Origin: Quercus robur
Lineage: Eukaryota > Streptophyta > Magnoliopsida > Fagales > Fagaceae
Assembly (NCBI RefSeq): GCF_932294415.1
Contig: NC_065537.1
Coordinates: 50,946,302 to 51,010,301, forward strand
DNA length: 64,000 bases
Reading direction: 5' to 3'
In this document: positions 1 to 57,855 of the stretch, one piece after another
How positions within the stretch are numbered: position 1 is the first letter of the stretch
Layout of the letters: each line of letters opens with the position of its first letter
Position numbers and translations under genes: made by a program
The notes under the pieces: model-generated
What the model was told of the DNA's origin: nothing
Database searches by the model: none
The model's input: only the letters and a program-made list of their open reading frames with translations

Positions 1-3000
1 ATTGTCAAAATAGATGATTTTCTTTTTTCAAAATTAAAATAGAAGAAGAATGTTGTAATAGTACCTCTCACAGTAGGCGTAGAAATCGGGGCGTAGAAGT
101 CGGCAGTAATCGGGGCGTAAAAGACGGCGGTGAAAGATGAACGCATGGAAAGATAAATGAACAGTGAGGATTAATAAAAGCTAGGATTATACCACTTCAC
201 TCTCTTGGTCCGATGGTCACTCCACAAGTCATTACCATATGTTGATTTCTAGCAAGCATGGGCGATATGATAAGGCAATATAATTAGGTATGGCAATAGG
301 GTACGTTGACTGTGGGGATCCCATTCCCCAAAATTCATCAATGGAATTTTTTCAAACCAATTATATCACCTCACGCAAAACTAAAACCTACACTGTAGGA
401 GCATTAAAACCTAATTCATAAATACAAGCATTTAAGTGCTACAAACCAACACCAAGCGTTCTATCTTAGCTAGCATAATTGTTTTAATAATTCACAGAAT
501 GTTATACAAAGAGGAACATTGAATGTTCCAAGTATCTCTCCAAAAATAGTTGTTGCTTCGTGACAACGATGACCATTTTCGAAATCTAAAGGACTCTCTT
601 AAGGAAAAAGTAGCAAACAAGCTTTCACAATTTCGAAGATCCATTTTAGACTCTTTCCGCTTATGACACGTTTATTGTTATATTGTTTTTACTTAAAAAA
701 ATGGAGATGTGACCAAGAAGCTCATATTCAGAAAATATACTCTAATTTACACTTCATTGCCAGATCTACACAGAGCTAACAACATTTCATCTAACCAAAC
801 AAATGAAACAAACATAAAATCATTAAATTGATCCCAAAATCATCAAATCAAAAGGAAAAACTAGATAATTAACAATCCATATCATGTAATTATCTTAAAC
901 TATCACAAAATTTTCAAAATAGATGATTTTCTTTTTTCAAAATTAAAATAGAAGAAGAATGTTGTAATAGTACCTCTCAAAGTAGGCGTAGAAATCGGGG
1001 TGTAGAAGTCGGCAGAAATCGGGGCGTAAAAGACGGCGGTGAAAGATGAACGCATGGAAAGATAAATGAACAGTGAGGATTAATAAAAGCTAGGATTATA
1101 CCACTTCACTCTCTTGGTGCGATGGTCACTTCACAAGTCATTACTATATGTTCATTTCAAGGAAGCATGGGCGATATGATAAGGCAATATAATTAGGTAT
1201 GGCAATAGGGTAGGTTGACTGTGGGGATCCCATTCCCTAAAATTCATCAATGGAATTTTTTCAACCCAATTATATCACCTCACACAAAACTAAAACCTAC
1301 ACTGTAGGAGCATCAAAACCTAATTCGTAAATACAAGCATTTAAGTTCTGCAAACCAACCACAAGCGTTCTATATTAGCTAGCATAATTGTTTTAATAAT
1401 TCAGAGAATGTTATACATAGAGGCACATTGAATGTTCCAAGCATCTCTCCAAAAATAGTTGTTGCTTCGTGACAACGATGACCATTTTCGAAATCTAAAG
1501 GACTCTCTTAAGGAAAAAGTAGTAAACAAGCTTTCACAATTTTGAAGATCCATTTTAGACTCTTTCCGCTTATGACACGTTTATTGTTGTATTCCTTTTA
1601 CTTAAAAAAACAGAGATGTGACCAAGAAGCTCATATTTAGAAAATATACTCTAATTTACACTTCATTGCCCGATCTGCTCAGAGCTAACAACATTTCACC
1701 TAACCAAACAAATGAAACAATCATAAAATCATTAAATTAATCACAAAATCATCAAATCAAAAGGAAAAACTAGATAATTAACAATCCAAATCATGTAATT
1801 ATCTTAAACTATCACAAAATTGTCAAAATAGATGATTTTCTTTTTTCAAAATTAAAATAGAAGAAGAATGTTGTAATAGTACCTCTCACAGTAGGCGTAG
1901 AAATCGGGGCGTAGAAGTCGGCAGAAATCGGGGTGTAAAAGTCAGCGGTGAAAGATGAACGCATAGAAAGATAAATGAACATTGAGAATTAATAAAAGCT
2001 AGGATTATACCATTGCACTCTCTTGGTGCGATGGTCACTCCACAAGTCATTACTATATGTTGATTTCTAGCAAGCATGGGGGATATGATAAAGCAATATA
2101 ATTAGGTATGACAATAGGGTAGGTTGACTGTGGGGATCCCATTCCCCAAAATTCATCAATGGAATTTTTTCAACTCAATTATATCACCTCACACAAAACT
2201 AAAACCTACACTGTAGGACCGTCAAAACCTAATTAATAATACAAGCATTTAAGTTCTGCAAACCAACACCAAGCGTTCTATCTTAGCTAGCATAATTGTT
2301 TTAATAATTCAGAGAATGTTATACATAGAGGCACATTGAATGTTCCAAGTATCTCTCCAAAAATAGTTGTTGCGTCGTTACAACGATGACCATTTTCGAA
2401 AGCTAAAGGACTCACTTAAGGAAAAAGTAGCAAACAAGCTTTCACAATTTTGAAGATCCATTTTAGACTCTTTCCGCTTATGACACGTTTATTGTTGTAT
2501 TGCTTTTACTTAAAAAAATGGAGATGTGACCAAGAAACTCATATTCAGAAAATATACTCTAATTTACACATCATTGCCCGATCTACATAGAGCTAACAAC
2601 ATTTCATCTAACCAAACAAATGAAACAATCATAAAATCATTAAATTAATCACAAAATCATCAACTCAAAAGGAAAAACTAGATAATTAACAATCCATATC
2701 ATGTAATTATCTTAAACTATCGCAAAATTGTCAAAATAGATGATTTTCTTTTTTCAAAATTATAATAGATGAAGAATGTTGTAATTGTACCTCTCACAGT
2801 AGGCGTAGAAATTAGGGTGTAGAAGTCGGTAGACATCGGGGCGTAAAAGTCGGCGGTGAAAGATGAACGCATAGAAAGATAAATGAATAGTGAGGACTAA
2901 TAAAAGCTAGGATTATACCACTGCACTCTCTTGGTGCGATGGTCACTCCACAAGTCATTACTATATGTTCATTTCTAGCGAGCATGGGAGATATGATAAA

Positions 3001-6000
3001 GCAATATAATTAGGTATGACAATAGGGTAGGTTGACTGTGGGGATCCCATTCCCCAAAATTCCTCAATGGAATTTTTTCAACCCAATTATATCACCTCAC
3101 ACAAAACTAAAACCTACACTGTAGGAGCATCAAAACCTAATTCATAAATACAAGCATTTAAGTTCTGCAAACCAACACCAAGCATTCTATCTTAGCTAGC
3201 ATAATTGTTTTAATAATTCACAGAATGTTATACAAAGAGGAACATTGAATGTTCCAAGTATCTCTCCAAAAATAGTTGTTGCTTCGTGACAACGATGACC
3301 ATTTTCGAAATCTAAAGGACTCTCTTAAGGAAAAAGTAGCAAACAAGCTTTCACAATTTTGAAGATCCATTTTAGACTCTTTCCGCGTATGAAACGTTTA
3401 TTGTTGTATTGCTTTTACTTAAAAAAATGGAGATGTGACCAAGAAGCTCATATTCAGAAAATATACTCTAATTTACACTTCATTGCCCGATCTACACAGA
3501 GCTAACAACATTTCATCTAACCAAACAAATGAAACAATCATTAAATCATTAAATTAATCACAAAATTATCAAATCAAAAGGAAAAACAAGATAATTAACA
3601 ATCCATATCATGTAATTATCTTAAACTATCTCAAAATTGTCAAAATAGATGATTTTCTTTTTTCAAAATTAAAATAGAAGAAGAATGTTGCAATAGTACC
3701 ACTCACAGTAGGCGTAGAAATCAGGGTGTAGAAGTCGACAGACATCGGGGCGTAAAAGTCGGCGGTGAAAGATGAACGCATACAAAGATAAATGAACAGT
3801 GAGGACTAATAAAAGCTAGGATTATACCACTGCACTCTCTTGGTGCGATGGTCACTCCACAAGTCATTACTATATGTTCATTTCTAGCAAGCATGGGGGA
3901 TATGATAAAGCAATATAATTAGGTATGACAATAGGGTGGGTTGACTGTGGGGATCCCATTCCCCAAAATTCCTCAACGGAATTTTTTCAACCCAATTATA
4001 TCACCTCACACAAAACTAAAACCTACACTGTAGGAGCATCAAAACCTAATTCATAAATACAAGCATTTAAGTTCTGCAAACCAACACCAAGCGTTCTATC
4101 TTAGCTAGCATAATTGTTTGAATAATTCACAGAATGTTATTCATAGAGGCACATTGAATGTTCCAAGTATCTCTCCAAAAATAGTTGTTGCTTCGTGACA
4201 ACAATGACCATTTTCGAAATCTAAAGGACTCTCTTACGGAAAAAGTACCAAACAACCTTTCACAATTTTGAAGATCCATTTTAGACTCTTTCCGCTTATG
4301 ACACGTTTACTGTTGTATTGCTTTTACTTAAAAAAATGGAGATGTGACCAAGAAGCTCATATTCAGAAAATATACTCTAATTTACACTTCATTACCCGAT
4401 CTACACAGAGCTAACAACATTTCACCTAACCAAACAAACGAAACAATCATAAAATCATTAAATTAATCACAAAATCATCAAATCAAAAGGAAAAATTAGA
4501 TAATTAACAATCCATATCATGTAATTATCTTAAACTATCACAAAATTCTCAAAATAGATGATTTTCTTTTTTCAAAATTAAAATAGATGAAGAATGTTGT
4601 AATAGTACCTCTCACAGTAGGCATAGAAATCGGGGCGTAGAAGTCGGCAGAAATCGGGGCGTAAAAGTCGGCGGTGAAAGATGAACGCATAGAAAGATAA
4701 ATGAACATTGAGGATTAATAAAAGCTAGGATTATACCACTGCACTCTCTTGGTGCGATGGTCACTCCACAAGTCATTACTATATGTTGATTTCTAGCACG
4801 CATGGGAGACATGATAAGGCAATATAATTAGGTATGGCAATAGGGTAGGTTGACTGTGGGGATCCCATTCCCTAAAATTCATCAATGGAATTTTTTCAAC
4901 CCAATTATATCACCTCACACAAAACTAAAACCAACACTGTAGGAGCACCAAAACCTAATTCATAAATACAAGCATTTAAGTTCTGCAAACCAACACCAAG
5001 CGTTCTATCTTAGCTAGCATAATTGTTTTAATAATTCACAGAATGTTATACATAGAGGCACATTGAATGTTCCAAGTATCTCTCCAAAAATAGTTGTTGC
5101 TTCGTGACAACAATGACCATTTTCGAAATCTAAAGGACTCTGTTAAGGAAAAAGTAGTAAACAAGCTTTCACAATTTTGAAGATCCATTTTAGACACTTT
5201 CCGCTTATGACACGCTTATTGTTGTACTGCTTTTACTTAAAAAAATGGAGATGTGACCAAGAAGCTCATATTCAGAAAATATACTCTAATTTACACTTCA
5301 TTGCCCGATCTGCTCAGAGCTAACAACATTTCACCTAACCAAACAAATGAAACAATCATAAAATCATTAAATTAATCACAAAATCATCAAATCAAAAGGA
5401 AAAACTAGACAATTAACAATCCAAATCATGTAATTATCTTTAACTATCACAAAATTGTCAAAATAGATGATTTTCTTTTTTCAAAATTAAAATAGAAGAA
5501 GAATGTTGTAATAGTACCTCTCACAGTAGGCGTAGAAATCGGGGCGTAGAAGTCGGCAGAAATCGGGGTGTAAAAGTCAGCGGTGAAAGATGAACGCATA
5601 GAAAGATAAATGAACATTGAGGATTAATAAAAGCTAGGATTATACCACTGCACTCTCTTGGTGCGATGGTCACTCCACAAGTCATTACTATATGTTGATT
5701 TCTAGCAAGCATGGGGGATATGATAAAGCAATATAATTAGGTATGGCAATAGGGTAGGTTGACTGTGGGGATCCCATTCCCCAAAATTCCTCAATGGAAT
5801 TTTTTCAACTCAGTTATATCACCTCACACAAAACAAAAACCTACACTGTAGGACCGTCAAAACCTAATTAATAATACAAGCATTTAAGTTCTGCAAACCA
5901 ACACCAAGCGTTCTATCTTAGCTAGCATAATTGTTTTAATAATTCACAGAATGTTATACATAGAGGCACATTGAATGTTCCAAGTATCTCTCCAAAAATA

Positions 6001-9000
6001 GTTGTTGCTTCGTGACAACAATGACCATTTTCGAAATCTAAAGGACTCTGTTAAGGAAAAAGTAGTAAACAAGCTTTCACAATTTTGAAGATCCATTTTA
6101 GACACTTTCCGCTTATGACACGCTTATTGTTGTATTGCTTTTACTTAAAAAAATGGAGATGTGACCAAGAAGCTCATATTCAGAAAATATACTCCAATTT
6201 ACACTTCATTGCCCGATCTACACAGAGCTAACAACATTTCATCTAACCAAACAAATGAAACAATCATAAAATCATTAAATTAATCACAAAATCATCAAAT
6301 CAAAAGGAAAAACTAGATAATTAACAATCCATATCATGTAACTATCTTAAACTATCACAAAATTGTCAAAATAGATGATTTTCTTTTTTCAAAATTAAAA
6401 TAGATGAAGAATGTTATAATTGTACCTCTCACAGTAGGCGTAGAAATCAGGGTGTAGAAGTCGGCAGACATCGGGGCGTAAAAGTCGGCGGTGAAAGATG
6501 AACGCATAGAAAGATAAATGAATAGTGAGGACTAATAAAAGCTAGGATTATACCACTGCACTCTCTTGGTGCGATGGTCACTCCACAAGTCATTACTATA
6601 TGTTCATTTCTAGCGAGCATGGGGGATATGATAAAGCAATATAATTAGGTATGGCAATAGGGTAGGTTGACTGTGGGGATCCCATTCCCCAAAATTCCTC
6701 AATGGAATTTTTTCAACCCAATTATATCACCTCACACAAAACTAAAACCTACACTGTAGGAGCATCAAAACCTAATTCATAAATACAAGCATTTAAGTTC
6801 TGTAAAGCAACACCAATCGTTCTATCTTAGCTCGCATAATTGTTTTAATAATTCACAGAATGTTATACATAGGGGCACATTGAATGTTCCAAGTATCTCT
6901 CCAATAATAGTTGTTGCTTCGTGACAACGATGACAATTTTCGAAATCTAAAGGACTCTCTTAAGGAAAAAGTAGCAAACAAGCTTTCACAATTTTGAAGA
7001 TCCATTTTAGACTCTTTCCGCTTATGACACGTTTATTGTTGTATTGCTTTTACTTAAAAAAATGGAGATGTGAACAAGAAGCTCATATTCAGAAAATATA
7101 CTCCAATTTACACTTCATTGCCCGATCTACACAGAGCTAACAACATTTCATCTAACCAAACAAATGAAACAATCATAAAATCATTAAATTAATCACAAAA
7201 TCATCAAATCAAAAGGAAAAACTAGATAATTAACAATCCATATCATGTAACTATCTTAAACTATCACAAAATTGTCAAAATAGATGATTTTCTTTTTTCA
7301 AAATTAAAATAGATGAAGAATGTTATAATTGTACCTCTCACAGTAGGCGTAGAAATCGGGGCGTAGAAGTCGGCAGAAATCGGGGTGTAAAAGTCAGCGG
7401 TGAAAGATGAACGCATAGAAAGATAAATGAACATTGAGGATTAATAAAAGCTAGGATTATACCACTGCACTCTCTTGGTGCGATGGTCACTCCACAAGTC
7501 ATTACTATATGTTGATTTCTAGCAAGCATGGGGGATATGATAAAGCAATATAATTAGGTATGGCAATAGGGTAGGTTGACTGTGGGGATCCCATTCCCCA
7601 AAATTCCTCAATGGAATTTTTTCAACTCAGTTATATCACCTCACACAAAACAAAAACCTACACTGTAGGACCGTCAAAACCTAATTAATAATACAAGCAT
7701 TTAAGTTCTGCAAACCAACACCAAGCGTTCTATCTTAGCTAGCATAATTGTTTTAATAATTCACAGAATGTTATACATAGAGGCACATTGAATGTTCCAA
7801 GTATCTCTCCAAAAATAGTTGTTGCTTCGTGACAACAATGACCATTTTCGAAATCTAAAGGACTCTGTTAAGGAAAAAGTAGTAAACAAGCTTTCACAAT
7901 TTTGAAGATCCATTTTAGACTCTTTCCGCTTATGACACGTTTATTGTTGTATTGCTTTTACTTAAAAAAATGGAGATGTGACCAAGAAGCTCATATTTAG
8001 AAAATATACTCTAATTTACACTTCATTGCCCGATCTACACAGAGCTAACAACATTTCATCTAACCATACAAATGAAACAAACATAAAATCATTAAATTGA
8101 TCACAAAATCATCAAATCAAAAGGAAAAACTAGATAATTAACAATCCATATCTTGTAATTATCTTAAACTATCACAAAATTGTCAAAATAGATGATTTTC
8201 TTTTTTCAAAATTAAAATAGATGAAGAATGTTGTAATAGTACCTCTCACAGTAGGCATAGAAATCGGGGCGTAGAAGTCGGCAGAAATCGGGGCGTAAAA
8301 GTCGGAGGTGAAAGATGAACGCATAGAAAGATAAATGAGCATTGAGGATTAATAAAAGCTAGGATTATACCACTGCACTCTCTTGGTGCGATGGTCACTC
8401 CACAAGTCATTACTATATGTTTATTTCTAGCACGCATGGGGGACATGATAAGGCAATATAATTAGGTATGACAATAGGGTAGGTTGACTGTGGGGATCCC
8501 ATTCCCCAAAATTCATCAATGGAATTTTTTCAACCCAATTATATCACCTCAGACAAAACTAAAACCTACACTGTAGGAGCATCAAAACCTAATTCATAAA
8601 TACAAGCATTTAAGTTCTGCAAACCAACACCAAGCGTTCTATCTTAGCTAGCATAATTGTTTTAATAATTCACAGAATGTTATACATAGAGGCACATTGA
8701 ATGTTCCAAGTATCTCTCCAAAAATAGTTGTTGCTTCGTGACAACGATGACCATTTTCGAAATCTAAAGGACTCTCTTAAGGAAAAAGTAGCAAACAAGC
8801 TTTCACAATTTTGAAGATCCATTTTAGACTATTTCCGCTTATGAAACGTTTATTGTTGTATTGCTTTTACTTAAAAAAATGGAGATGTGACCAAGAAGCT
8901 CATATTCAGAAAATATACTCTAATTTACACTTCATTGCCCGATCTACACAGAGCTAACAACATTTCATCTAACCAAACAAATGAAACAATCATAAAATCA

Positions 9001-12000
9001 TTAAATTAATCACAAAATCATCAAATCAAAAGGAAAAACTAGATAATTAACAATCCATATCATGTAATTATCTTAAACTATCACAAAATTCTCAAAATAG
9101 ATGATTTTCTTTTTCAAAATTAAAATAGATGAAGAATGTTGTAATAGTACCTCTCACAGTAGGCATAGAAATCGGGGCGTAGAAGTCGGCAGAAATCGGG
9201 GCGTAAAAGTCGGCGGTGAAAGATGAATGCATAGAAAGATAAATGAACATTGAGGATGAATAAAAGCTAGAATTATACCACTGCACTCTCTTGGTGCGAT
9301 GGTCACTCCACAAGTCATTACTATATGTTGATTTCTAGCACGCATGGGGGACATGATAAGGCAATATAATTAGGTATGGCAATAGGGTAGGTTGACTGTG
9401 GGGATCTCATTCCCCAAAATTCATCAATGGAATTTTTTCAACCCAATTATATCACTTCACACAAAACTAAAACCAACACTGTAGGAGCATCAAAACCTAA
9501 TTCATAAATACAAGCATTTAAGTTCTGCAAACCAACACCAAGCGTTCTATCTTAGCTAGCATAATTGTTTTAATAATTCACAGAATGTTATACATAGAGG
9601 CACATTGAATGTTCCAAGTATCTCTCCAAAAATAGTTGTTGCTTCGTGACAACAATGACCATTTTCGAAATCTAAAGGACTCTGTTAAGGAAAAAGTAGT
9701 AAACAAGCTTTCACAATTTTGAAGATCCATTTTAGACACTTTCCGCTTATGACACGCTTATTGTTGTATTGCTTTTACTTAAAAAAATGGAGATGTGACC
9801 AAGAAGCTCATATTCAGAAAATAGACTCTAATTTACACTTCATTGCCCGATCTGCTCAGAGCTAACAACATTTCATCTAACCAAACAAATGAAACAATCA
9901 TAAAATCATTAAATTAATCACAAAATCATCAAATCAAAAGGAAAAACTAGATAATTAACAATCCAAATCATGTAATTATCTTAAACTATCACAAAATTGT
10001 CAAAATAGATGATTTTCTTTTTTCAAAATTAAAATAGAAGAAGAATGTTGTAATAGTACCTCTCAAAGTAGGCGTAGAAATCGGGGCGTAGAAGTCGGCA
10101 GAAATCGGGGTGTAAAAGTCAGCGGTGAAAGATGAACGCATAGAAAGATAAATGAACATTGAGGATTAATAAAAGCTAGGATTATACCACTGCACTCTCT
10201 TGGTGCGATGGTCACTCCACAAGTCATTACTATATGTTGATTTCTAGCAAGCATGGGGGATATGATAAAGCAATATAATTAGGTATGGCAATAGGGTAGG
10301 TTGACAGTGGGGATCCCATTCCCCAAAATTCCTCAATGGAATTTTTTCAATTCAGTTATATCACCTCACACAAAACTAAAACCTACACTGTAGGACCGTC
10401 AAAACCTAATTAATAATACAAGCATTTAAGTTCTGCAAACCAACACCAAGCGTTCTATCTTAGCTAGCATAATTGTTTTAATAATTCACAGAATGTTATA
10501 CATAGAGGCACATTGAATGTTCCAAGTATCTCTCCAAAAATAGTTGTTACTTCGTGACAACAATGACCATTTTCGAAATCTAAAGGACTCTGTTAAGGAA
10601 AAAGTAGTAAACAAGCTTTCACAATTTTGAAGATCCATTTTAGACACTTTCCGCTTATGACACGCTTATTGTTGTATTGCTTTTACTTAAAAAAATGGAG
10701 ATGTGACCAAGAAGCTCATATTCAGAAAATATACTCTAATTTACACTTCATTGCCCGATCTACACAGAGCTAACAACATTTCATCTAACCAAACAAATGA
10801 AACAATCATAAAATCATTAAATTAATCACAAAATCATCAAATCAAAAGGAAAAACTAGATAATTAACAATCCATATCATGTAATTATCTTAAACTATCGC
10901 AAAATTGTCAAAATAGATGATTTTCTTTTTTCAAAATTAAAATAGATGAAGAATGTTGTAATTGTACCTCTCACAGTAGGCATAGAAATCAGGGTGTAGA
11001 AGTCGGCAGACATCGGGGCGTAAAAGTCGGCGGTGAAAGATGAACGCATAGAAAGAGAAATGAATAGTGAGGACTAATAAAAGCTAGGAGTATACCACTG
11101 CACTCTCTTGGTGCGATGGTCACTCCACAAGTCATTACTATATGTTCATTTCTAGCAAGCATGGGGGATATGATAAAGCAATATAATTAGGTATGGCAAT
11201 AGGGTAGGTTGACTGTGGGGATCCCATTCCCCAAAATTCCTCAATGGAATTTTTTCAACCCAATTATATCACCTCACACAAAACTAAAACCTACACTGTA
11301 GGAGCATCAAAACCTAATTCATAAATACAATTATTTAAGTTCTGCAAAGCAACACCAATCGTTCTATCTTAGCTCGCATAATTGTTTTAATAATTCACAG
11401 AATGTTATACATAGGGGCACATTGAATGTTCCAAGTATCTCTCCAATAATAGTTGTTGCTTCGTGACAACGATGACCATTTTCGAAATCTAAAGGACTCT
11501 CTTAAGGAAAAAGTAGCAAACAACCTTTCACAATTTTGAAGATCCATTTTAGACTCTTTCCGCTTATGACACGTTTATTGTTGTATTGCTTTTACTTAAA
11601 AAAATGGAGATGTGACCAAGAAGCTCATATTTAGAAAATATACTCTAATTTACACTTCATTGCCCGATCTACACAGAGCTAACAACATTTCATCTAACCA
11701 TACAAATGAAACAAACATAAAATCATTAAATTGATCACAAAATCATCAAATCAAAAGGAAAAACTAGATAATTAACAATCCATATCTTGTAATTATCTTA
11801 AACTATCACAAAATTGTCAAAATAGATGATTTTCTTTTTTCAAAATTAAAATAGATGAAGAATGTTGTAATAGTACCTCTCACAGTAGGCATAGAAATCG
11901 GGGCGTAGAAGTCGGCAGAAATCGGGGCGTAAAAGTCGGAGGTGAAAGATGAACGCATAGAAAGATAAATGAACATTGAGGATTAATAAAAGCTAGGATT

Positions 12001-13858
12001 ATACCACTGCACTCTCTTGGTGTGATGGTCACTCCACAAGTCATTACTATATGTTGATTTCTAGCACGCATGGGGGACATGATAAGGCAATATAATTAGG
12101 TATGGCAATAGGGTAGGTTGACTGTGGGGATCCCATTCCCCAAAATTCATCAATGGAATTTTTTCAACCCAATTATATCACCTCAGACAAAACTAAAACC
12201 TACACTGTAGGAGCATCAAAACCTAATTCATAAATACAAGCATTTAAGTTCTGCAAACCAACACCAAGCGTTCTATCTTAGCTAGCATAATTGTTTTAAT
12301 AATTCACAGAATGTTATACATAGAGGCACATTGAATGTTCCAAGTATCTCTCCAAAAATAGTTGTTGCTTCGTGACAACGATGACCATTTTCGAAATCTA
12401 AAGGACTCTCTTAAGGAAAAAGTAGCAAACAAGCTTTCACAATTTTGAAGATCCATTTTAGACTCTTTCCGCTTATGAAACGTTTATTGTTGTATTGCTT
12501 TTACTTAAAAAAATGGAGATGTGACCAAGAAGCTCATATTCAGAAAATATACTCTAATTTACACTTCATTGCCCGATCTACACAGAGCTAACAACATTTC
12601 ATCTAACCAAACAAATGAAACAATCATAAAATCATTAAATTAATCACAAAATCATCAAATCAAAAGGAAAAACTAGATAATTAACAATCCATATCATGTA
12701 ATTATCTTAAACTATCACAAAATTGTCAAAATAGATGATTTTCTGTTTTCAAAATTAAAATAGAAGAAGAATGTTGTAATAGTACCTCTCACAGTAGGCA
12801 TAGAAATCAGGGTGTAGAAGTTGGCAGACATCGGGGCGTAAAAGTCGGCGGTGAAAGATGAACGTATAGAAAGATAAATGAACAGTGAGGACTAATAAAA
12901 GCTAGGATTATACCACTGCACTCTCTTGCTGCGATGGTCACTCCACAAGTCATTACTATATGTTCATTTCTAGCGAGCATGGGGGATATGATAAAGCAAT
13001 ATAATTAGGTATGGCAATAGGGTAGGTTGACTGTGGGGATCCCATTCCCCAAAATTCCTCAATGGAATTTTTTCAACTCAATTATATCACCTCACACAAA
13101 ACTAAAACCTACACTGTAGGAGCATCAAAACCTAATTCATAAATACAAGCATTTAAGTTCTGCAAACCAACACCAAGCGTTCTATCTTAGCTAGCATAAT
13201 TGTTTTAATAATTCGGAGAATGTTATACATAGAGGCACATTGAATGTTCCAAGTATCTCTCCAAAAATAGTTGTTGCTTCGTGACAACAATGACCATTTT
13301 CGAAATCTAAAGTACTCTCTTAAGGAAAAAGTAGCAAACAAGCTTTCACAATTTTGAAGATCCATTTTAGACTCTTTCCGCTTATGACACGTTTATGATT
13401 GTATTGTTTTTACTTAAAAAAATGGAGATGTGACCAAGAAGCCCATATTCAGAAAATATACTTTAATTTACACTTCATTGCCCGGTCTGCACAGAGCTAA
13501 CAACATTTCATCTAACCAAACAATTGAAACAATCATAAAATCATTAAATTAATCACAAAATCATCAAATCAAAAGGAAAAACTAGATAATTAACAATCCA
13601 TATCATGTAATTTTCTTAAACTATCACAAAATTGTCAAAATAGATGATTTTATTTTTTCAAAATTAAAATAGAAGAAGAATGTTGTAATAGTACCTCTCA
13701 CAGTAGGCGTAGAAATCGGGGCGTAGAAGTCGGCAGAAATCGGGGTGTAAAAGTCGGCGGTGAAAGATGAACGCATAGAATGATAAATGAACATTGAGGA
13801 TTAATAAAAGCTAGGGTTATACCACTGCACTCCCTTAGTGCGATGGTCACTCCACAAG
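1..13858. repeat. Tandem array of a 908-909 bp monomer, 15 full copies plus a partial
   Basis: The same anchor (GTCAAAATAGATGATTTTC or a one-base variant) recurs at about 4, 913, 1822, 2730, 3639, 4548, 5457, 6365, 7274, 8182, 9091, 9999, 10907, 11816, 12725 and 13634. The spacing is therefore 908 or 909 bp. Copies differ by scattered substitutions and a few small indels. The array runs off the left edge, so its full length is unknown. No long open frame exists in the monomer. Minus-strand frames of 63-66 codons recur in many copies only because the DNA is conserved. Each monomer contains a short doublet of GAAATCGGGG-CGTAGAAGTCGG-type sequence and, at its end, the first 37 bp of the SINE seen complete at 13821-13993. 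Confidence 0.97.
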
Positions 13859-13993
13859 TATAAGTGCTTGTGGAGTGTGGGGGGCAAGGGCCGAGGTTCA
13901 AGTTTCCAAGAGGGAGCTTCACACACATATACACTTAGATTAGGCTAGAGTAGAATTCTATCTTGTATAAAATAAAAAATAAAAAATAAAAAA
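13821..13993 (+). mobile_element. Full-length tRNA-type SINE at the array edge
   Basis: The element starts ACCACTGCACTCCC and ends in an A-rich tail of AAAAAT units. It is flanked by an exact 18-bp direct repeat, AATAAAAGCTAGGGTTAT, at 13803-13820 and 13994-14011. A sequence close to a pol III B box (GGTTCAAGTTTCC) lies near 13893, and an A-box-like segment (TTAGTGCGATGGT) near the head. A perfect 11-bp inverted repeat, CACTCCACAAG (13848-13858) and CTTGTGGAGTG (13867-13877), encloses an 8-base loop. The related locus at 32491-32520 carries the target sequence once with no SINE between, so it serves as an empty site. The 3' part of the same family recurs at 54127-54197. Confidence 0.9.
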
Positions 13994-14011
13994 AATAAAA
14001 GCTAGGGTTAT

Positions 14012-14366
14012 GGGAGACTTTACGAATATACCCCTCGCTTCCCAAAAAATTAAAAAAGTAAATATATATTTTTTAATGTATATAAAGAGTGGAATTACGA
14101 ACTAGATACTTGTGGTATATTGAAATGGAATGTGGGAAAATATAATCACGTATATAGGCAAGTCTTCAATGCAGTATAATCCCACTTAGATATGTAAATA
14201 TAAAATGCTCTTTTTGCTTCTTATTTTTTATTTTCCCCTAATAATGTTCAAATGAAATTGATTATTATTATTATTATTATTTGTTGAGAGATTTCAACTC
14301 GTGTCGTTCGCTCTTGATAATAACCTTTTATCATTATACTAAGACATCAATCGGTTTTTGATGATG
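14012..14366. repeat. Duplicated flank of the array monomer, ending in a truncated SINE
   Basis: The stretch beginning GGGAGACTTTAC is closely matched by 32509-32870. From about 14281 to 14366 it contains the 3' part of a second SINE family, in minus orientation (complete-looking copy at 27185-27350, older copy at 32766-32927). Similarity stops at about 14366. There the sequence switches to the 3' flank of the F-box locus (compare about 39880), so this is a recombination junction. Confidence 0.8.
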
Positions 14367-14711
14367 AATTTTTTTATTTAATTTTTTTTTATAAAAATAA
14401 TATTAAGTGATGAATTTTCTATAAAGTCTAATAATCTATACAAAGTCACTACAAAACACATTTTTATCTAGACAAGAAATATCAATTTAAGAAATATCAA
14501 TTTAAAAATATATTGATAAAATCAAAAGTCAACACACTAACAATAACTACTATATAGATTTTTTCCAAAACTCCAAATAAGAGATATCATTTTTGGTAAC
14601 TAAAAGAACTTAGGTTAAAACAATAGTGAAAGAAAAAAAGTAAAGCAACAATAGTACATTTCAGTCTATTAATTTTCTATAATCAATTATAAATAGAGAG
14701 AGAGAGAGAGG

Positions 14712-15245
14712 AATTCTTTTAATCACCATTCAAAGTCTTTTTTTAAAGTCAATTTTGGCTTGCTTTGAATCCAACAACAATTTATCGGTTCTTGTACGCT
14801 ATGAATGTTGGTAGAATAATCATCGAATATGAAATGATACTTGCTAGTATTGAGAGAGTATAAAACGTTTTTCTTGCCTTTGAAAATTGGCAATTAAATC
14901 TTGTTTCCCAATCCTCTTGGCACAAGAGGTTCTAAGAAAGACCCTCCAAGACTGATATATAGGATTCTATTTCCCAAACTTCTCACAATACACCAGACAA
15001 TCTTGCGAGGTTTCATCATGTCTTTATTTACTTGTAACTTAGGTAGTTCAAAAACATGAATTGGTTTCTTAGTGTCACCCTCCTCAACCACGAATATTGG
15101 TAAAAGCTTCCCTTCATCACTTTCCACCAAGCAACTTCGATGAATTGAATCAAGCTTTTCTTGAATAAGGGAAATTTTATCGTTATGATAAACAATCCAG
15201 TTACTGGGGTTGTCGTTTGGATCAAAAAATCCAGCAACTTTGATG
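14712..15245 (-). pseudogene. F-box/DUF295 pseudogene, 3' half only
   Basis: Read on the minus strand, this fragment matches the C-terminal half of the F-box/DUF295 protein at 40177-41280, beginning at the shared FDPNDNPSNW segment. The frame is open from 15253 to 14894. It then ends at a TAA where the other copy has a tyrosine codon (GNKIY changed to GNKI-stop), and small indels follow down to the copy's original end near 14712. Upstream of FDPND the similarity breaks off abruptly at about 15230-15245, and the F-box and the first half of the propeller domain are missing. With no F-box, no start and a nonsense change, it cannot make a working protein. The next sequence (15246 onward) matches the 3' flank of the other locus. 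Confidence 0.88.
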
Positions 15246-29725: not shown

Positions 29726-30371
29726 TAAATGCCACACAAAAAGTGATACAGACCAACCTAGAAAGAAATAACCTTTGGCCACAAACTAATCGTTCAACCT
29801 GAAATTATAAATACATAGAAAGAAATATGTGAGTTGAGAACATGAATATAGGTTGAAGAAATATGTGAGCTAACCTCAAAATAATAACCGTTTTGAAGTT
29901 CATAGAAAAATAATCTTCCTTTGGCCACAAAATAACCGTTCAACTTGAAATTCTAAATACATAGAAATTAAGAAATATGTGAGCTGAAAATATGATCATT
30001 GAAGAAATATTTGATCTAAGAACATAAAAATATATCGAAGAATAATGTTAGAGAGAAATCAAGAATTAAAGAGAAAAATCATTGACGGTGGAGATTAAAA
30101 AAAAATGTAAAAAACGGTGGTAAAGCTAATTACCCCATTGCAATTCCTAAGAGTCATTGAGATAATGCAAATTTGAGATATATATACACACACACTTGAT
30201 TTTACAAGTTTTGTTGAGGAAGGGGAATAGTCATAGAAGAGTAAGAGTTTCATACATTTTGGTAACAACCATGTCAACATATGAAAGGTTGGGATGAACC
30301 CATAAATGTAACAATTAAAAAGTTTAAAAAACTTCCCTCAAGAAAGTTTTTTAAAAATTATGGAGTACATA
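28931..30371. other. Intergenic AT-rich DNA, no gene seen
   Basis: Contains a 40-base A run at 29684-29723 and two related stretches with CTTTGGCCACAAA and GAAATATGTGAGCT near 29770-29990. Nothing codes recognisably. Confidence 0.5.
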
Positions 30372-30412
30372 CTACCACACACCCTTGGTGCGGTGGTCAC
30401 TCCACAAGTATA
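30372..30412 (+). mobile_element. Head of the first SINE family, fused to other sequence
   Basis: CCTTGGTGCGGTGGTCACTC followed by CACAAGTATAA matches the first part of the SINE at 13821. The sequence then diverges (ATGGATTCGTAGAGTCC). It is either a SINE variant with another body or a truncated copy. Confidence 0.5.
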
Positions 30413-30829
30413 ATGGATTCGTAGAGTCCCCAACAATCATAAGGTTTATAGGTATGAATGGCCAACTATATTTCAATTACCAAACTAAGGCAGGGAGGGT
30501 GTCAAATCTCCTAATCTAAGGTGAGAAATATATGTCTGCAAACCATAGATATAGGTTTGGGTCCACGGAAGGTGTTCGGAACCCCATGACATCCGTTTTG
30601 TAACATTACCCTGTTGATTTCACTTATACTTCATTATACTACATTAGGTATTTAAGGTATGAGGGGATCAACAGCCTGAGAGCATCATTCTCCTGTCATG
30701 TTTCATTTTTTTGGATATTTGGGCGACCTTGGTAGAACCGAGGCACAAGGTCTTTGTAGATCTGATGGGGAATCTATTAATTCATTAGCTGCTGCATTGT
30801 CCTCATGTCTATGATCTATGGGCATTCAT

Positions 30830-31115
30830 ATTTTTTCTAGTTAGGATTGATTGGGTTATGCCACACTCTGTTGACACCATACTGAAATCTTGGGAAGGTG
30901 TAAGGGTAGTTCAAAGATATGTGAGAGTTTGGAGGGCAGTTCCAGCATGTCTTATGTGGTGTATTTAGAAGGAGCTTAATCAACACACATTTGAGGAAAA
31001 GGAGATTTCTCTGCCTAATCTCAAGTTTCTCTTCTTGAAGACTCTTTGAACGGGCATCACATTCTCTTACCCTCTCTATGTACTCCTTAACGGAGTTGGG
31101 TCATAAGATGATAAG
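30830..31115 (+). pseudogene. LINE remnant, C-terminal end of the reverse transcriptase protein
   Basis: Translation, with stops and frame breaks, gives RIGLGYAMPHSVDTILKSW, then VWRAVPACLMWCI, a stop, KELNQHTFEEKE and LKFLFLKTLFEWASH. This is the conserved tail after the zf-RVT domain of plant LINE-1 (non-LTR) retrotransposons, which typically reads 'P.CLMWCIWRERN.R.FE'. The in-frame TAG in place of the Trp codon shows it is dead. No enzyme domain remains. Confidence 0.75.
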
Positions 31116-31634
31116 TTATTGAGTGATGTAAACATGATTGAAATATAACCACATATATCACTCTAACACACACACACACATTCATGGTTTGACCTATATG
31201 AAGGCCCTTACCTAGATTAGTGATTTTACTAATGTTGTAAGTCTCTGATCTTAGTCTGACCAATCAAGGCCTTGGGTGTTAAACTTTATTTCCCTTTTGT
31301 CATGCTTATGTATTTAGCTTATCATAGCTCATCACATAGTTCCAAAAGAAGCAAATATATACGGCTTAGCCGCTTAGGACCTTGATTTTTAATTACACCT
31401 AGGATAACTCTTTGTTAATATTACACCACTTTATAAGTATCAACTAAATTAGTTTTTTAACAATTCCACAGTTGGATTACACTTTTTTTTTTTTTTTGGG
31501 ATAAGTACCATTGGATTACATGTTTTAATGTGTTCTTAACTTACGTACCATATTTTGTATAAATTAAATGTCAATCACTATCCAATCCATAAACTCATTA
31601 AAAAAAAAAATCTAAAAACAATTTATAAATCAGA

Positions 31635-32508
31635 TAGTCATTACTATATGTTGATTTCTAGCAAGCATGGGGGATATGATAAAGCAATATAATTAGGTAT
31701 GGCAATAGGGTAGGTTGACTGTGGGGATCCCATTCCCCAAAATTCCTCAATGGAATTTTTTCAACCCAATTATATCACCTCACACAAAACTAAAACCTAC
31801 ACTGTAGGAGCATCAAAACCTAATTCATAAATACAAGCATTTAAGTTTTGCAAACCAACACCAAGCGTTCTATCTTAGCTAGCATAATTGTTTTAATAAT
31901 TCACAAAATGTTATACATAGAGGCACATTGAATGTTCCAAGTATCTCTCCAAAAATAGTTGTTGCTGCGTGACAACGATGACCATTTTTGAAATCTGAAG
32001 GACCCTCTTAAGGAAAAAGTAGCAAACAAGCTTTCACAATTTTGAAGATCCATTTTAGACTCTTTCCGCTTATGACACGTTTATTGTTGTATTGCTTTTA
32101 CTTAAAAAAATGGAGATGTGACCAAGAAGCTCATATTCAGAAAATATACTCTAATTTACACTTCATTGCCCGATCTACACAGAGCTAACAACATTTCATC
32201 TAACCAAACAAATGAAACAATCATAAAATCATTAAATTAATCACAAAATCATTAAATCAAAAGGAAAAACTAGATAATTAACAATCCATATCATGTAATT
32301 ATCTTAAACTATCACAAAATTTTCAAAATAGATGATTTTCTTTTTTCAAAATTAAAATCGAAGAAGAATGTTGTAATAGTACCTCTCACAGTAGGCGTAG
32401 AAATCGGGGCGTAGAAGTCGGCAGAGATCGGGGCGTAAAAGTCGGCGGTGAAAGATGAACGCATAGAAAGATAAATGAACAGTGAGGATTAATAAAAGCT
32501 AGGGTTAT
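31635..32508. repeat. Single-copy homologue of the tandem-array monomer
   Basis: From GTCATTACTATATG (31638) to AGCTAGGGTTAT (32508) this matches the array monomer over 871 bp. It lacks the 37 bp of SINE head present in every array copy, since 871 + 37 = 908. The left border follows unrelated sequence (TAAATCAGATA). To the right it runs straight into GGGAGACTTTAC, the same DNA that follows the SINE at the array edge. It is therefore close to the sequence from which the array was built. Confidence 0.9.
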
Positions 32509-32930
32509 GGGAGACTTTACTAATATACCCCTAGCTTCCCAAAAAATTAAAAAAGTAAATCTATATTTTTTAATGTATTTAAAGAGTAGAATTAAGAATT
32601 AGATACTTGTTGTATATTGAAATGGAATATGGGAAAATATAATCACGTATATAGGCAAGTCTTCAATGCAGTATAATCCCACTTAGATACGTAAATATAA
32701 AATGCTCTTTTTGCTTCTTATTTTTTATTTTCCCCAAATAATGTTCAAATGAAATGGATTATTATTATTTGTTGAGAGATTTCAACTCGTGGCGTTCGCT
32801 CTTGATAATAACATTTTATTATTAGATCAAGACATTAATCGGTTTTTGGTATAGGTATGGATTTAATCCCAAATTTCTTATTTAACCGTTAGAAACTTTA
32901 CTAATTGAGATAACAAGAACCCACAAAAAT
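32509..32930. repeat. Duplicated flank of the monomer locus, with an old SINE
   Basis: Matches 14012-14366. It contains a fuller but diverged copy of the second SINE family at about 32766-32927 on the minus strand, whose tRNA-like head is still visible (AATTGAGATAACAAGAACCC in plus orientation). Confidence 0.75.
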
Positions 32931-34880: not shown

Positions 34881-36055
34881 AACTAAGGTTTTGCCCTAAA
34901 ACTTGGTAAAATGATAAGAAGTATTAATTCACCCAACGAATGTGGTTTGAGGAACCAGACATAGCTGAGGTTCTGTTTGGTACTTAGAAAGATGTCATAA
35001 TGTGTTAATTTTCTCAAAACATGTGGTCCGAGGAGCCAGGCATAGCTAAGGTTCTGTTTAATACTTAGAACAATGGTTAAAAGATATCAATTTACCCAAA
35101 GTATGTGGTTTGAGGAGCCAAACATGACCAATGTTCTGTTTGATACTTAGATAGATGTCTAAGAGTATTAATTTTCCCAAGGTATGTGGTCCGAGGAGCC
35201 AGACATGATCAAGGTTCTATTTAATACTTAGAAAAATGATTAAAAGATATTAATTTACCCAAGGTATGTGGTCCGAGGAGCCAGACATGATTAATATTCT
35301 GTTTGATACTTAGATAGATGTCTGGGAGTATTAATTTTCTTAAGGTATGTGGTCCGAGGAGCCAAACATGACCAAGATTTTGTTTAATACTTAGAAAAAT
35401 GATTAAAAGATAACAATTTACCCAAGGTATGTGATCCGAGGAGCCAGGCATGACCAAGATTCTATTTGATACTTAGATAGATGTCTAGGAGTATTAATTT
35501 TCCCAAGGTATGTGGTTTGAGGAGCCAAGCATGACCAACGTTCTATTTAATACTTAGAATAATGATTAAAAGATATCAATTTACCCAAGGTATGTGGTCC
35601 AAGGAGCCAGACATGACCAATGTTCTGTTTGATACTTAGATAGATGTCTGGGAGTATTAATTTTCCCAAGGTATGTGGTCTGAGGAGTCAGGAATGACCA
35701 ATGTTCTGTTTAATACTTAGAACAATGATTAAAAGATATCAATTCACCCAAGGCATGTGGTTTGAGGAGCCAGGCATGACCAAGATTCTGTTTGAAACTT
35801 AGATAATGTTTGGGAGTATTAATTTTCCCAAGGTATATGATCCGAGGAGCTAGGCATGACCAATGTTTTGTTTAATACTTAGAACAATGATTAAAAGATA
35901 TTAATTTACCCAAGGTATGTGGTTCGAGGAGCTAGGCATGACCAATGTTCTATTTTATACTTTGATAGATGTTTGGGAGTATTGATTTTCCCAAGGTATA
36001 TGGTCTAATAAGCCAGGCATGACTAAAGTTCTGTTTAATACTTAGATAGATAGTA
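34881..36055. repeat. Tandem array, about 14 units of 81 bp in alternating dimers
   Basis: The core GTATGTGGTCCGAGGAGCCA recurs at roughly 34942, 35022, 35101, 35182, 35264, 35344, 35424, 35507, 35588, 35668, 35751, 35830, 35912 and 35995. Two tail variants alternate: one has TTTAATACTTAGAACAATGA, the other TTTGATACTTAGATAGATG. The effective unit is thus a dimer of about 162 bp. It lies between the pseudogene and the LTR-like segment of the retroelement. Confidence 0.92.
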
Positions 36056-39309: not shown

Positions 39310-40176
39310 TAATGAAGCATATTCAAAACTATTAGCTTTAAATGAAACTTACTTGAAATTTATCCATACAAAAAGTTTAGAAAATGGTTTGATAATTACT
39401 GTGTTATATTACAAACTCATATCATTTACGGGAAGTTTTTTCTTTCACATCAACATTTTTTCTAGAAAAAAGAAAAAGAAAAAGAAAAATAGAGAGGAAA
39501 ACCCAATTATCCTAGTTAAGAACAAGATGGCGGATTCTTAATAAAAAGAAAAAAATAAAATAAAAGAAGAACAAGATGGTGATATTTGTTATCACTATCC
39601 CAACCAAATCAAATCTAATAATATTTTTCTTTCAATTTGGATAAGTTTGAGGTAAATTTTATTTAAATCTTATCGTTTTGGATAAATTTTCAACTTTTCA
39701 AAGTACATAAAAAGAAGGAAAAAAATGTTGGGAGATCATTATTGGCTTAGTATTTTACAAAGTTTGTAAATTTCAAATGGCATAACTAATGATCAAATGT
39801 TGTCATTTGTTGGTCCATATTTAATGAAAATTTTCAAAAATTCAAGAGGTTTTTTTTTTTTTTTTTTTTTTTGGGTGATGAATTATTTTCTGTAAAGTCT
39901 AAAAATCTGTACAAAGTCAATGCAAAACACATTTTTATCTAGGTAAGAAATATCACTTTAAGAATATATTGATAAAATCAAAAGTCAACACCTTAACATT
40001 AACCACTATAGATTTTGTCCAGAACTCCAAATAAGAGAAATAATTTCGATAACTAAAAGAACTTGGGTTAAAACAACAGGGAAGTAAAAAAGAGAAGTAA
40101 CACTAGTACATCTCAGTCTATTAATTCTCTATAATCAATTATAAATCTCTTGCGTGAGAGAGAGGAATTCTCTTAA
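39310..40176. repeat. 3' flank of the F-box locus, source-like copy for 14366-15537 and 20586-20986
   Basis: The right part (39880-40176) matches 14366-14711. The left part (39310-39970) matches 15246-15537 plus 20586-20986. It contains a T run near 39851-39872 and an A-rich stretch at 39540-39560, the position that corresponds to the Helitron target at 15537/20586. No gene is seen. Confidence 0.8.
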
Positions 40177-41339
40177 TCACCATTCAAAGTCTTTGTTTAA
40201 AGTCAATTTTGGCCCACCCTGAATCCAACAGCAATTTCTCGGTTCCTGTACATTATGAATGTTTTTGGTAGAATAATCATCAAATATGGAACAATACTTG
40301 CCAGTACTGAGAGAGTAGTATATGTTTTTCTTGTCTTGGATAATTGGCAAGTAAATCTTGTTACCCAATCCTCTTGGCACAACAGGTTCTAAGAAAGACC
40401 CTCCAAGACTGATATATAGGATTCTATTTCCCAAACTTCTCACAATACGACAGACAATCTTGCAAGGTTTCACCATGGTTTTATTTACTTGTAACTTAGG
40501 TAGTTCAAAAACATGAATTGGTGTCCTAGTGTCACCCTCCTCAACCATGAATATTGCTAAAAGCTTCCCTTCGTCACTTTCCACCAAGTAACTTCGATGA
40601 ACTGAATCAAGCTTTTCTTGAATAAGGGGAATTTTATCATTATGATAAATAATCCAATTACTTGGGTTGTCGTTTGGATCAAATACTCCTAATCCTCCAT
40701 TCTCACCCAAACAATAGCACAATCCTTTGTGTAAGATTGGATTGCAATATGTTGATGGCGTAAATTCTGGCCTTTTAATAATTGTATGGGAAGTCCAACG
40801 TTTTTCTCCACGTTTAATGAACCCAAAATCATCCCACCCACAAATTCCAATAACAAAACAGTCAGAAGAAGTAGGCGGAGAAGAAAAACTCATGGTAACG
40901 AATGATTCTCTATTTGTGCATTTAGGGAGTTCTACTTTTTCCTTTGTGAAAGGGTTGAAGAAAACGACACTAAAATTGTCATCACCATATCCAGTCAAGA
41001 GCAACCAACCATACTTTGAGAAGCGAATACGTGCATCCAATAATTCTGGAATGTCGATCTCACATGCATCATGCTTTTGGTATGCAGGGTGAAAGAATGT
41101 GCATTTATGCAAGCCAACGGACATTAAACATGGAGATAGAGACCATGGAGAATCAGTTAAGGTTGAGACCGCTGGTCGAGGAAGAGAAGTGCTTGATCGC
41201 CATGATTTGCATATAACACGAAAGGTTGCATATATGTAATCCCTTTTTACTTTCTTGATCTTCGGTAGAATATCTAACAATTTGTTTGGCCATGTGTAGT
41301 TCCACTCCCGCCGATTTCTTCCTTCTTTACGTAAAGGCT
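40177..41339 (-). CDS. F-box protein with DUF295/KIB-type beta-propeller; start uncertain
   Basis: A long minus-strand frame runs to a TGA at 40177. It begins with an F-box-like segment (WNYTWPNKLLDILPKIKKVK, then FRVICKSWRSST), followed by the DUF295 propeller: FSKYGWLLLTGYGDDN.SVVFFNPFTKEKVELP, CFVIGICGWDDFG, W.SHTIIKRPEF, GLCYCLGENGGLGVFDPND. The C-terminus is NCCWIQGGPKLTLNKDFEW. Such proteins are thought to act as substrate receptors of SCF ubiquitin ligases; the target is unknown. From 41280 to 41339 the frame extends back with no ATG to a good acceptor (TTTCTCTTTCCAATATAG). Joining it to a candidate exon ending GAAATCAAG/GTATCA near 41605 keeps the frame but still gives no ATG. Either a further 5' exon exists or the locus has lost its start. 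A truncated paralogue is at 14712-15245. Confidence 0.8.
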
Positions 41340-44412: not shown

Positions 44413-47400
44413 CTACCTCTCATCAGGCCTAAGAGGAGCATTTGCCAGATCTTGTATCTCCATCTTACTCTTGACCACACATGACTTTCTAGTGTTATAA
44501 TCTACTTTGTCCAAGTCCTCTGCGATACCCATGTATCCATACAGAATATGTTCCTCCACCTTTTCTCCTTGGTTTCCTGCATCCCAGCTTTTGCTGCTTT
44601 TACCATTGTTGGATGTTATTCTCTCAAAATCTACTCTACCACGCTTATTTTCGTCAAAATACTTATGAAGCTTCTCTGCATCTCCTAGGCCAGTGAAAGT
44701 GCCCAAGAACTTTATGACCATAACACTTTTATCTGAGGGCCTCCCCAAGCACACTTTGATTCTTCCCCTTATAAAACCTTTCTCTGCCATAACAAGGCAA
44801 ACCATTATAATGCAGTATATGGCATTGTATTTAATTGTTTAATTTTTTGCTCAATTTTCACTATTCACAGGCAAGCTGAATATTGTGACTGATTCAAATA
44901 CTGCATATCATGAACATAAGCCATTAAAACAACAAAAAATTTTGTCCTTATTATGTTGTGGTGAACAAGATTAGAAGAACTCCTAACAAGTATAGCTTTA
45001 TGCCTACTCAAATTTAATTTTCAACCAAATGTGTTATACAGAACAGGTCATGCAAAGTCACTTACCTCTTAGAAAAGCCTCAACCTCTTCAACTTTAACA
45101 ACCTTCCATTTTCGCGGATTACTGTCTGACATAGAAATGTTGTGGACGACAATGAGAGGAGGCCAGAGTATCAAATCCTCTTTCTGAGCCAAGGCTTCTG
45201 CAATGGGCAAGACCTCAGGAGACCATGTTATTGTGTCTTCTGGGACAACAGTATTCCATCCTAACAAAACACATATTGCTTTGTGAAGACCCAAGTGCTG
45301 TGATCTCAGCCCAACCTTGTGAGACATGAAGGCATGTGTTACCAGGCGTTGAGTATCCAAGAACTCCTTTGAATGGCTGAAACAATGTGCATTGTTAATT
45401 ATAACAGTTTCAAGAGAAACATGATTGACCAATTAACTTCTGTCAATTAGTGGTATCCAATCTAATAACAGTAAAATACTACTTCAGTGGATCATTCAAA
45501 CTAACTATTCTACATAGATTTCCAAAAATTATTATGAGCTTAAGAATATAATAGAAAATACACAATGCTAACAATGAGGATAGGGCATATATCAAATGAA
45601 AACTGAATTCAATTACCATCTAATGAAACTTGAAGCTTACACATTCATCACCACTAAAATTTAAAATTAACAATAATATAGATTCAGGCAGCTAGAAATC
45701 TTTCCCAACCCCAACCAGTCCTTTATTAGCTTTCACTTATGGAAACTGATAGACCAGGGCTGAGGCAGGCAGGAGGGTGGCACAAAAAAGTTACTAAACC
45801 AATTCTTTAACACACTTGTAGATGACAATTGACAAATAATTCCACTACCAGGGGAGCTTGCACCTTAGCAAATCAATGATGTTAAGCGGAAATTCCCTTT
45901 AAAGGAAATGACAATCTACACTATATCATAGTCAATCATGAAATGCGTCTCTCAGACTCTCACGAAGTCAAGGTCTCATGGCTTATAATGGGACAAACAA
46001 ACTTCAGACAGTTGGCAACTTCAGTTTGGACCATTTGTACCTGCTTACTTAAGCTTATCCTCTCCAGTCTGCCAACAAGAAATTTGATAATTTTCCGTTT
46101 TTCCCGTGGCATAATAATTGCTAATGTGAACATAATCTGACATCATATTCTTTTCATGCGTGCTTCAGATGAAAGATCACCAGTTAATATATAAAATCAA
46201 TTAATTAAAATTCCATGAGATTGTGTAGGCACCACATACAGAAAGAGCCTGGGTATGCCTTTGTCAATATATTTACTGATCCACAGACATGTAGCATATT
46301 TAATTAAAATCCCTGCTTGCTAAGACATGTCCTTGGATCTTGATATTCAAAGTAATATCTTGATAGTCTCCAAAAACTCATAAATTCCACCAATGTTAGA
46401 GAGCAGGCCATGATAATTTGAGGAGGTAGTCGTGCTTATATCCTAAAAGTTTATAATAAAATAATTATTTGTGCAACCAGAAATATTGCACATGAAGCTA
46501 CATCCATATATAGAGAGGCTTTTGGCCGTTCTTTTTTTACTGATGCATTCATTTTCTCCAATCATCTTAGAGGGGATTTGTAAAAGACTATGACTATTAC
46601 ATCCAAAACATCTGGTAAGTGATGCCAACCCCACTTAAACATACCCCCTCCCCCCACCCCCACAAACCCAAAAAAAGGAAAAAAGGGAGACAGAAAAATG
46701 CCCATTCTTTTTAGTTTAAAATAATATCTAGGACATTGATCATGTAAACCTTAGTTTAACATCAAGGTTGTAAACAAGGTCCATATTCCTAATTAATAAA
46801 TTATAAAGAAAAAGAGATAGGGAAAAAGAGTCATAGAAGCATTTTATTGAATTGGAATTTCAACTCAATATGTATACAAAACATACATATGCCTATAGTG
46901 AAACCTAAACCAATATCCAACTCACTTGCAACCTAGTTGTCTTTACAACTATACCAAAATGGCTTTAGCATTACATACTAGTAGTAGTTACATATATACA
47001 CATACAATGAGAGCGTGCATGCAACCCACCCTCTAGATTGTCTTCACCAAAATGTTGAAATGGCTTTGACAATAAATACCAAATACTGCTACACTACACA
47101 TATTCAATGAGACTTAAAAGACTACAAATATGCCCACATATAATCAGACATAAACACCACAACCAATCCATCCACCCAATGTGCTATAAAGGTTAACTCT
47201 GATCAGCAACCTATTTCCAAATATTAGACCTATTCCATAGTCCTTTACTCAATGAAACATCAAGGACAAAAAATGGACAGCAGAAATCATCTAATGATTT
47301 TCACCATAATTGAACAACAAAAGGCACTTGAGCTAGAATTGGGAAGTCACTTCTAAGTAATGTTCACCAAAGGTTCATACCCCAGTACGTGGAATTGATG

Positions 47401-57585: not shown

Positions 57586-57855
57586 CAATTAAAAAAAATT
57601 GATATTTTAATTAAACATAGTATAAAATAGATAATTTAATGTGAAGTGTTTTGTAAAAAGAATATGTAAAATAGAAAAAGTAGATTATTATATTAAAATA
57701 GATTGAAATTTTTACACGAGCAATTAAAAAAAATTGATATTTTAATTAAACATAGTATAAAATAGATAATTTAATATGAAGTGTTTTGTAAAAAGAATAT
57801 GTAAAATAGAAAAAGTAGATTATTATATTAAAATAGATTGAAATTTTTACACGAG
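57586..57855. repeat. Tandem duplication, two copies of 135 bp
   Basis: Copies 57586-57720 and 57721-57855 begin CAATTAAAAAAAATTGATAT and end TTTTTACACGAG. I count one substitution (TAATGTGAAG against TAATATGAAG), so the duplication is recent. Confidence 0.95.

Follow-up and report, generated by a model that had tools for sequence, protein, structure and literature searches.

Tandem repeats that contain part of a short interspersed nuclear element (SINE), and that were homogenised later, are known from squamate reptiles (PMC10702118), and in rye the pSc200 and pSc250 arrays are plant tandem arrays joined to co-amplified adjacent pieces of transposable elements (TEs), for which repair and recombination driven by microhomology have been proposed (PMC4857426). 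A general model of TE-derived tandem repeats likewise envisages joining by microhomology and then non-allelic recombination (PMC9659126, PMC12628747). Here we analyse a 64,000-nucleotide stretch of Quercus robur (assembly GCF_932294415.1, contig NC_065537.1, here C4:50946302-51010301; ‘the window’, numbered from 1), which opens with a tandem array whose unit consists of local DNA fused to the head of a SINE. We consider it very probable that the array arose locally in a single event and that recombination then enlarged it.

How does this locus compare with its relatives? Most of the squamate satellites have a longer terminal unit in which the SINE runs to its end, and the terminal unit of the present array also extends to the SINE's own end. 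The squamate arrays, however, repeat a portion of the SINE and occupy many loci in some genomes, whereas here 871 of the 909 bases of the unit are local DNA and only 38 (4%) are SINE sequence, at one locus in a plant host. The rye arrays form large subtelomeric heterochromatin blocks that involve several TE families, in contrast to the single 17-kb array with one traceable joint that we describe. The general models share with our locus a two-step scheme, joining and then unequal exchange; what differs is that an empty-site paralogue, a full SINE and a single joint have all been kept, so that the steps can be put in order. The array behaves like the known SINE- and TE-derived satellites at an early stage, and a literature search with little coverage of subscription papers found no report of a plant SINE head plus flank serving as a tandem unit.

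The array and the SINE at its right end comprise the following features of the window.

1-13858, forward strand: tandem array of 15 full monomers (229-13858) and the right part of another (1-228)
12950-13858, forward strand: last monomer (m18), 909 bp, being 871 bp of local DNA and SINE bases 1-38
13803-13820, forward strand: left target-site duplication (TSD), AATAAAAGCTAGGGTTAT, a perfect 18 bp
13821-13993, forward strand: complete SINE of 173 bp, which closes the array on the right
13848-13858, forward strand: left arm of a perfect 11-bp inverted repeat; the joint falls from 2 bases before to 1 base after the end of this arm
13867-13877, forward strand: right arm of the inverted repeat, with an 8-nt loop between the arms
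13994-14011, forward strand: right TSD, identical to the left copy
14012-14345, forward strand: right-hand flank native to the founder locus and homologous to the sequence that follows 32508

With 60 kb to the left of the window added to the analysis, the whole array is covered, and it amounts to 17,062 bases with 18 joints (15 of them inside the window), 18 full monomers and a truncated left unit. It starts at C4:50943233, 3069 bases left of the window, within a unit and at about the position matching 31975, so that the truncated unit has 572 bp (534 bp of unit and 38 bp of SINE head), and its right terminus is the complete SINE ending at 13993. The monomers are 909 bp long in 11 of 18 cases and 908 bp in the other seven, the shorter ones (as seen in the window) having a 1-bp deletion in a run of A. 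An earlier note on this DNA had described the complete SINE at 13821-13993 with its perfect 11-bp inverted repeat, which is borne out, with the 18-bp TSD and 8-nt loop now added; its sum for the monomer, 871 + 37 = 908, was right in the 871 bp and short in the SINE part, which is 38 bp (13821-13858) and brings the total to 909. Like a satellite, the array has similar units head to tail, 18 of them full; it lacks a satellite's abundance at many loci, since the joint is confined to one array (with up to two mismatches allowed). A mis-assembled array was considered and rejected, judging from the assembly alone, given that the 18 monomers differ pairwise at 11-51 positions, that gaps are few and that both ends are assembled. 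A coding array is rejected as well, there being no stop-free frame longer than 80 codons (the longest is 80 aa), and, with frames so short and the joint at one locus only, the sequence gives no sign of a function.

The terminal element has several properties of a plant SINE, namely an A-rich 3' tail, many dispersed copies and the perfect 18-bp TSD. The family includes 39 other copies at 92-96% identity on several contigs (40 were scored of 4217 first-look candidates), and direct repeats flanking several of these were picked out by eye. ARAGORN found no tRNA in the window. Words that may resemble A and B boxes were noticed by eye only, and the element may also bear a likeness to the Angio-domain. 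PMC9033089 mentions such a domain, a 37-bp 3' one. The fused heads carry a signature of their own: SINE base 13 is T in 18 of 18, with C in the terminal SINE and in the family (whose sequence was read by eye), and base 6 is T in 17 of 18, as in the terminal SINE, with C in the family and A in the remaining head. This pattern fits one duplication and then multiplication of an internal, changed head.

The joint itself, CACTCCACAAG/TCATTAC, is present at all 15 monomer boundaries in the window (14 exact, one with a substitution in its SINE part, at 1127), and its position is identical at 18/18 boundaries of the whole array, just as had been claimed for every copy. Scanning the 786-Mb genome (785.7 Mb) with up to two mismatches gave 19 matches, 18 in the array (16 exact, one with one mismatch, one with two) and a single one on contig C1, with two mismatches, which we read as a SINE variant. 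The same scan found the joint in no other array, and an unrelated repeat family bearing the head and joint, which the earlier note had named as grounds for giving up its account, is likewise rejected, the matches being the array and that one SINE-like place only. On the SINE side the sequence reads CACTCCACAAG|TATAAG and on the locus side CAGATAG|TCATTAC. Bases are indeed shared by the two partners, as had been noticed, though they are AGT rather than ‘GT’, and because of this shared AGT the break can be placed after SINE base 36, 37, 38 or 39 (a 3-bp ambiguity with four possible positions).

The second essential part of the record is the state of the locus before the SINE and the joint existed, which other copies of the unit preserve.

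31638-32508, forward strand: SINE-free paralogue of the 871-bp unit, which differs from any one of the 18 monomers by 24-37 substitutions
32509-32848, forward strand: right flank of the paralogue, which runs on past the empty SINE site
31101-32043, forward strand: stretch matched without a break through the joint position by a third copy that has no joint (L038, C4:46.59 Mb)

The paralogue lies about 18 kb from the array, has an empty SINE site and is contiguous across the position of the joint; its right flank and that of the founder differ by 18 substitutions in 326 aligned bases, with one internal gap of 9. L038, some 4.4 Mb from the array, matches 31101-32043 in a single piece (905 matches, 33 mismatches, 7 gap events) and joins the unit to the left flank of the 32-kb locus, again without the joint; its match ends before the SINE site, so it is uninformative on the SINE. 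Since both L038 and the 32-kb copy are contiguous without the joint, we take the contiguous state to be ancestral and the 32-kb copy is a paralogue rather than the founder. The view that the array followed SINE insertion, and that the 32-kb locus lacks the element, therefore holds, on the empty site of the paralogue and the terminal SINE with its TSD; the view that 31638-32508 is the founder sequence does not, the founder being the array's own locus. Nor is the unit strictly single-copy DNA, as had been supposed: besides 31638-32508 and the array there is a partial copy (query 3-406) at 94% at C4:46589946-46590356, with weaker matches elsewhere, a count that is a lower bound because the array was itself missing from the search output. 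Four other loci carry DNA similar to a part of the unit (about 32118-32368; 74-80%, and 92% over a 37-base piece), and at L042, the only one of the four that was tested, the similar DNA stands beside an open frame with Ribosomal_L11 matches. As an aside, L038:1501-2459, which matches 31101-32043, starts some 275 bases downstream of the third exon of what, read by eye, looks like an R-SNARE gene of the VAMP type. The first exon of this gene has a Pfam match to Longin that is sub-threshold only, and its last exons could not be made out within the 3.4 kb covered.

Once formed, the array appears to have been reworked from within. Most pairs of monomers differ at 30-50 positions, compared with 11 for each of m09/m14 and m10/m15, 18 for m01/m08 and for m13/m17, and 20 for m10/m12. 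The nearest relative of some mid-array monomers is five units away, and a higher-order block can be drawn.

4773-12949, forward strand: higher-order block in which 4773-9314 (m09-m13) and 9315-12949 (m14-m17) are related copies

In m16 (11132) the two monomers m11 and m12 meet in a hybrid: of the 34 informative sites that tell those two apart, m16 shares the m11 state at 16 of the 19 that lie up to column 394 and the m12 state at 14 of the 15 from column 493 on. Private changes number 8-13 in each of m01-m07 and 12 in m18, compared with 0-5 in m08-m17. Block copies, a hybrid and a homogenised middle are the usual mark of unequal exchange, and point to it here, in keeping with the amplification by unequal exchange that was proposed before and that the hybrid monomer and block copies bear out.

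The divergence of the monomers tells something of timing, which can be given only in relative terms. When L038 serves as the outgroup, its overlap of about 406 unit bases contains 17 variable positions, of which 10 changed on the L038 side, 5 on the 32-kb copy and 1 in the array ancestor, with 1 polymorphic in the array. A maximum-likelihood tree (HKY+G; 18 monomers, the 32-kb copy and L038), approximate owing to recombination between monomers, has a backbone of short, weakly supported branches, with several pairs and one group of four at support 85-99. From the common node the monomers lie at 0.018-0.040 substitutions per site and the 32-kb copy at 0.014. Amplification would thus have started soon after the paralogues split, and since then change in the array monomers appears to have run at about twice the rate seen in the paralogue. 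The right-flank divergence (18/326, a small sample) is higher than what separates the 32-kb copy from the array ancestor; a higher rate on the side of the array would explain this, and we claim no further event. Changes from the consensus number 196 distinct ones, of which 50 are C to T on either strand, at 11 of 32 CG, 7 of 27 CHG and 32 of 250 CHH sites, and this pattern fits methylated cytosines in part. That the array is ‘young’, as had been said of it, is doubtful with monomers 2-4% from their common node.

We think that the best account of all this is an insertion followed by one tandem duplication and amplification in place, a sequence of events that is well supported. The SINE evidently inserted in one of two duplicated loci, making its 18-bp TSD, while the other (31638-32508 and flank) kept an empty site. 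A tandem duplication, of which the one joint survives, would then have linked SINE base 38 (range 36-39) to the first base of the unit, with AGT shared and nothing inserted, as might be expected of sister-chromatid end-joining or replication template switching. The resulting 909-bp direct repeats would next have recombined out of register, by unequal crossover or conversion, in a clear pattern of copied blocks of 4-5 units, at least one hybrid monomer and a middle more homogenised than the ends. Finally, the left end was probably cut later, with removal of the native left flank; a truncated left unit beside no native left flank would suggest such a rearrangement. What argues for growth in place is the right end, where the full SINE and its two TSDs survive and are followed by a flank that the paralogue shares. 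Some observations do weigh against this account, or at least blunt it. The left flank of the paralogue was not found beside the left end of the array, and only the paralogue and L038 show where the left breakpoint lay; the DNA found there instead recurs in pieces across C4:50.68-51.02 Mb and has weaker relatives on other contigs. About 6% of random break-point pairs in this locus would share 3 bp or more, so such an overlap is not rare by chance, and, of the proposed joining by microhomology, the short overlap stands and the microhomology-driven joining is unproven. Hybrid monomers can also be produced by conversion, not just by crossover. In the tree the 32-kb copy is placed within the polytomy of the monomers, so that substitutions alone give no monomer clade, and it is the shared joint and SINE head that make the monomers one. 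A different route would have the unit and SINE head excised through the same joint as extrachromosomal circular DNA, amplified by rolling circle and returned by homologous recombination. Such a circle would yield the same joint and many near-identical units at once, and the star-like backbone of the monomer tree is what it might leave behind; it would nevertheless have to re-enter at the same place, where in-place duplication already explains the intact SINE, TSD and right flank, the block copies require unequal exchange or conversion regardless, and the joint is in no other array, all of which makes this route unlikely.

The other question to be weighed is why the break fell where it did, since the joint had been placed exactly at the end of the left hairpin arm and attributed to breakage at an extruded hairpin. 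Neither part fares well, the break being ambiguous over a range of -2 to +1 of the stem end. For the second part we took an anchor of 16 bases that runs to the end of the left arm, and compared copies genome-wide with all five right-arm positions changed against intact ones; as a control we used an anchor further down the same SINE, in a stretch rich in CA/TA repeats that inflate its raw count. The test uses exact anchors only, sees a break only if it lies in the eight bases that follow the anchor and overlooks some three quarters of random replacements, which makes it weak, if even between sites. The hairpin anchor gave 25 altered matches (16 in the array, 9 elsewhere) and 209 intact, the control 19 altered and 138 intact. 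Reading the rows, we judged clear loss of the following sequence in 3 of the 9 at the hairpin and 3 of the 19 at the control, the rest being length changes or small insertions, and among these genome-wide exact-anchor copies there is no excess of interruptions after the left arm over the control. As a separate observation, the window holds a second SINE head (bases 1-43) at 30371-30413, cut in the same loop after TATAA and fused to other DNA. Of the matches elsewhere to the next 227 bases, one, at 92% (C4:39949633-39949858), is near-full and five are short; heads at C1:20402597 and C3:11957210 also leave the SINE after TATAA.

A hairpin-triggered birth, in which the 11-bp inverted repeat was extruded and a cut or stalled fork at the stem-loop edge made the break that founded the array, can draw on the nearness of the joint to the stem end and on the fact that, in the reconstructed locus of 1.7 kb, no other perfect inverted repeat with a loop of 3-12 is as long. 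By chance, one or other break would come so close to one of the loop edges in about 1.5% of cases over unit and SINE, or in 4.6% if the break is known to be within the SINE, and the head at 30371-30413 and three clear breaks elsewhere end in the same loop, though the search could find loop breaks only. Those heads, however, depart from the SINE 4-5 bases into the loop and not at the stem end, the ratio of altered to intact copies (9/209) does not exceed that of the control (19/138), clear breaks are 3 against 3, and the coincidence was spotted after the fact. We therefore hold a birth of this kind to be very unlikely, the shared ending of these heads within the loop leaving it a small chance, and the corresponding idea that the SINE hairpin acted as a seed, its stem-loop edge provoking the founding break or template switch, to be about as improbable; if it were true, a SINE insertion could make neighbouring low-copy DNA a satellite precursor at a predictable base.

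The remainder of the window has some further features of its own. A headless piece of SINE tail (bases about 105-149) lies at 54133-54207, and a separate tandem array of about seven 163-bp units with 87% matches at 34910-36046. There is a long imperfect palindrome at 51633-52065, with a 75% match to its own reverse complement, and at 57586-57856 a 135-bp sequence occurs twice at 99% identity, a duplication that is probably recent. A gene with a KIB1-4 beta-propeller match occupies 40177-41280, and 39875-40689, which takes in part of this gene and DNA beyond its 3' end, recurs at 14407-15232 (87%), within a local duplication cluster; an open frame at 44413-44805 has an XS domain match.

The kind of process at work here is already known and its mechanism is ordinary, and we see the value of the locus in the record, which is well preserved and complete. 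Within one assembled region a tandem repeat can be traced to its birth, from the empty-site paralogue through the insertion with its TSD and the one joint to the later recombination. The accepted picture is left unchanged, and the array provides a worked example of how the edge of a TE and ordinary repair can start a tandem repeat.

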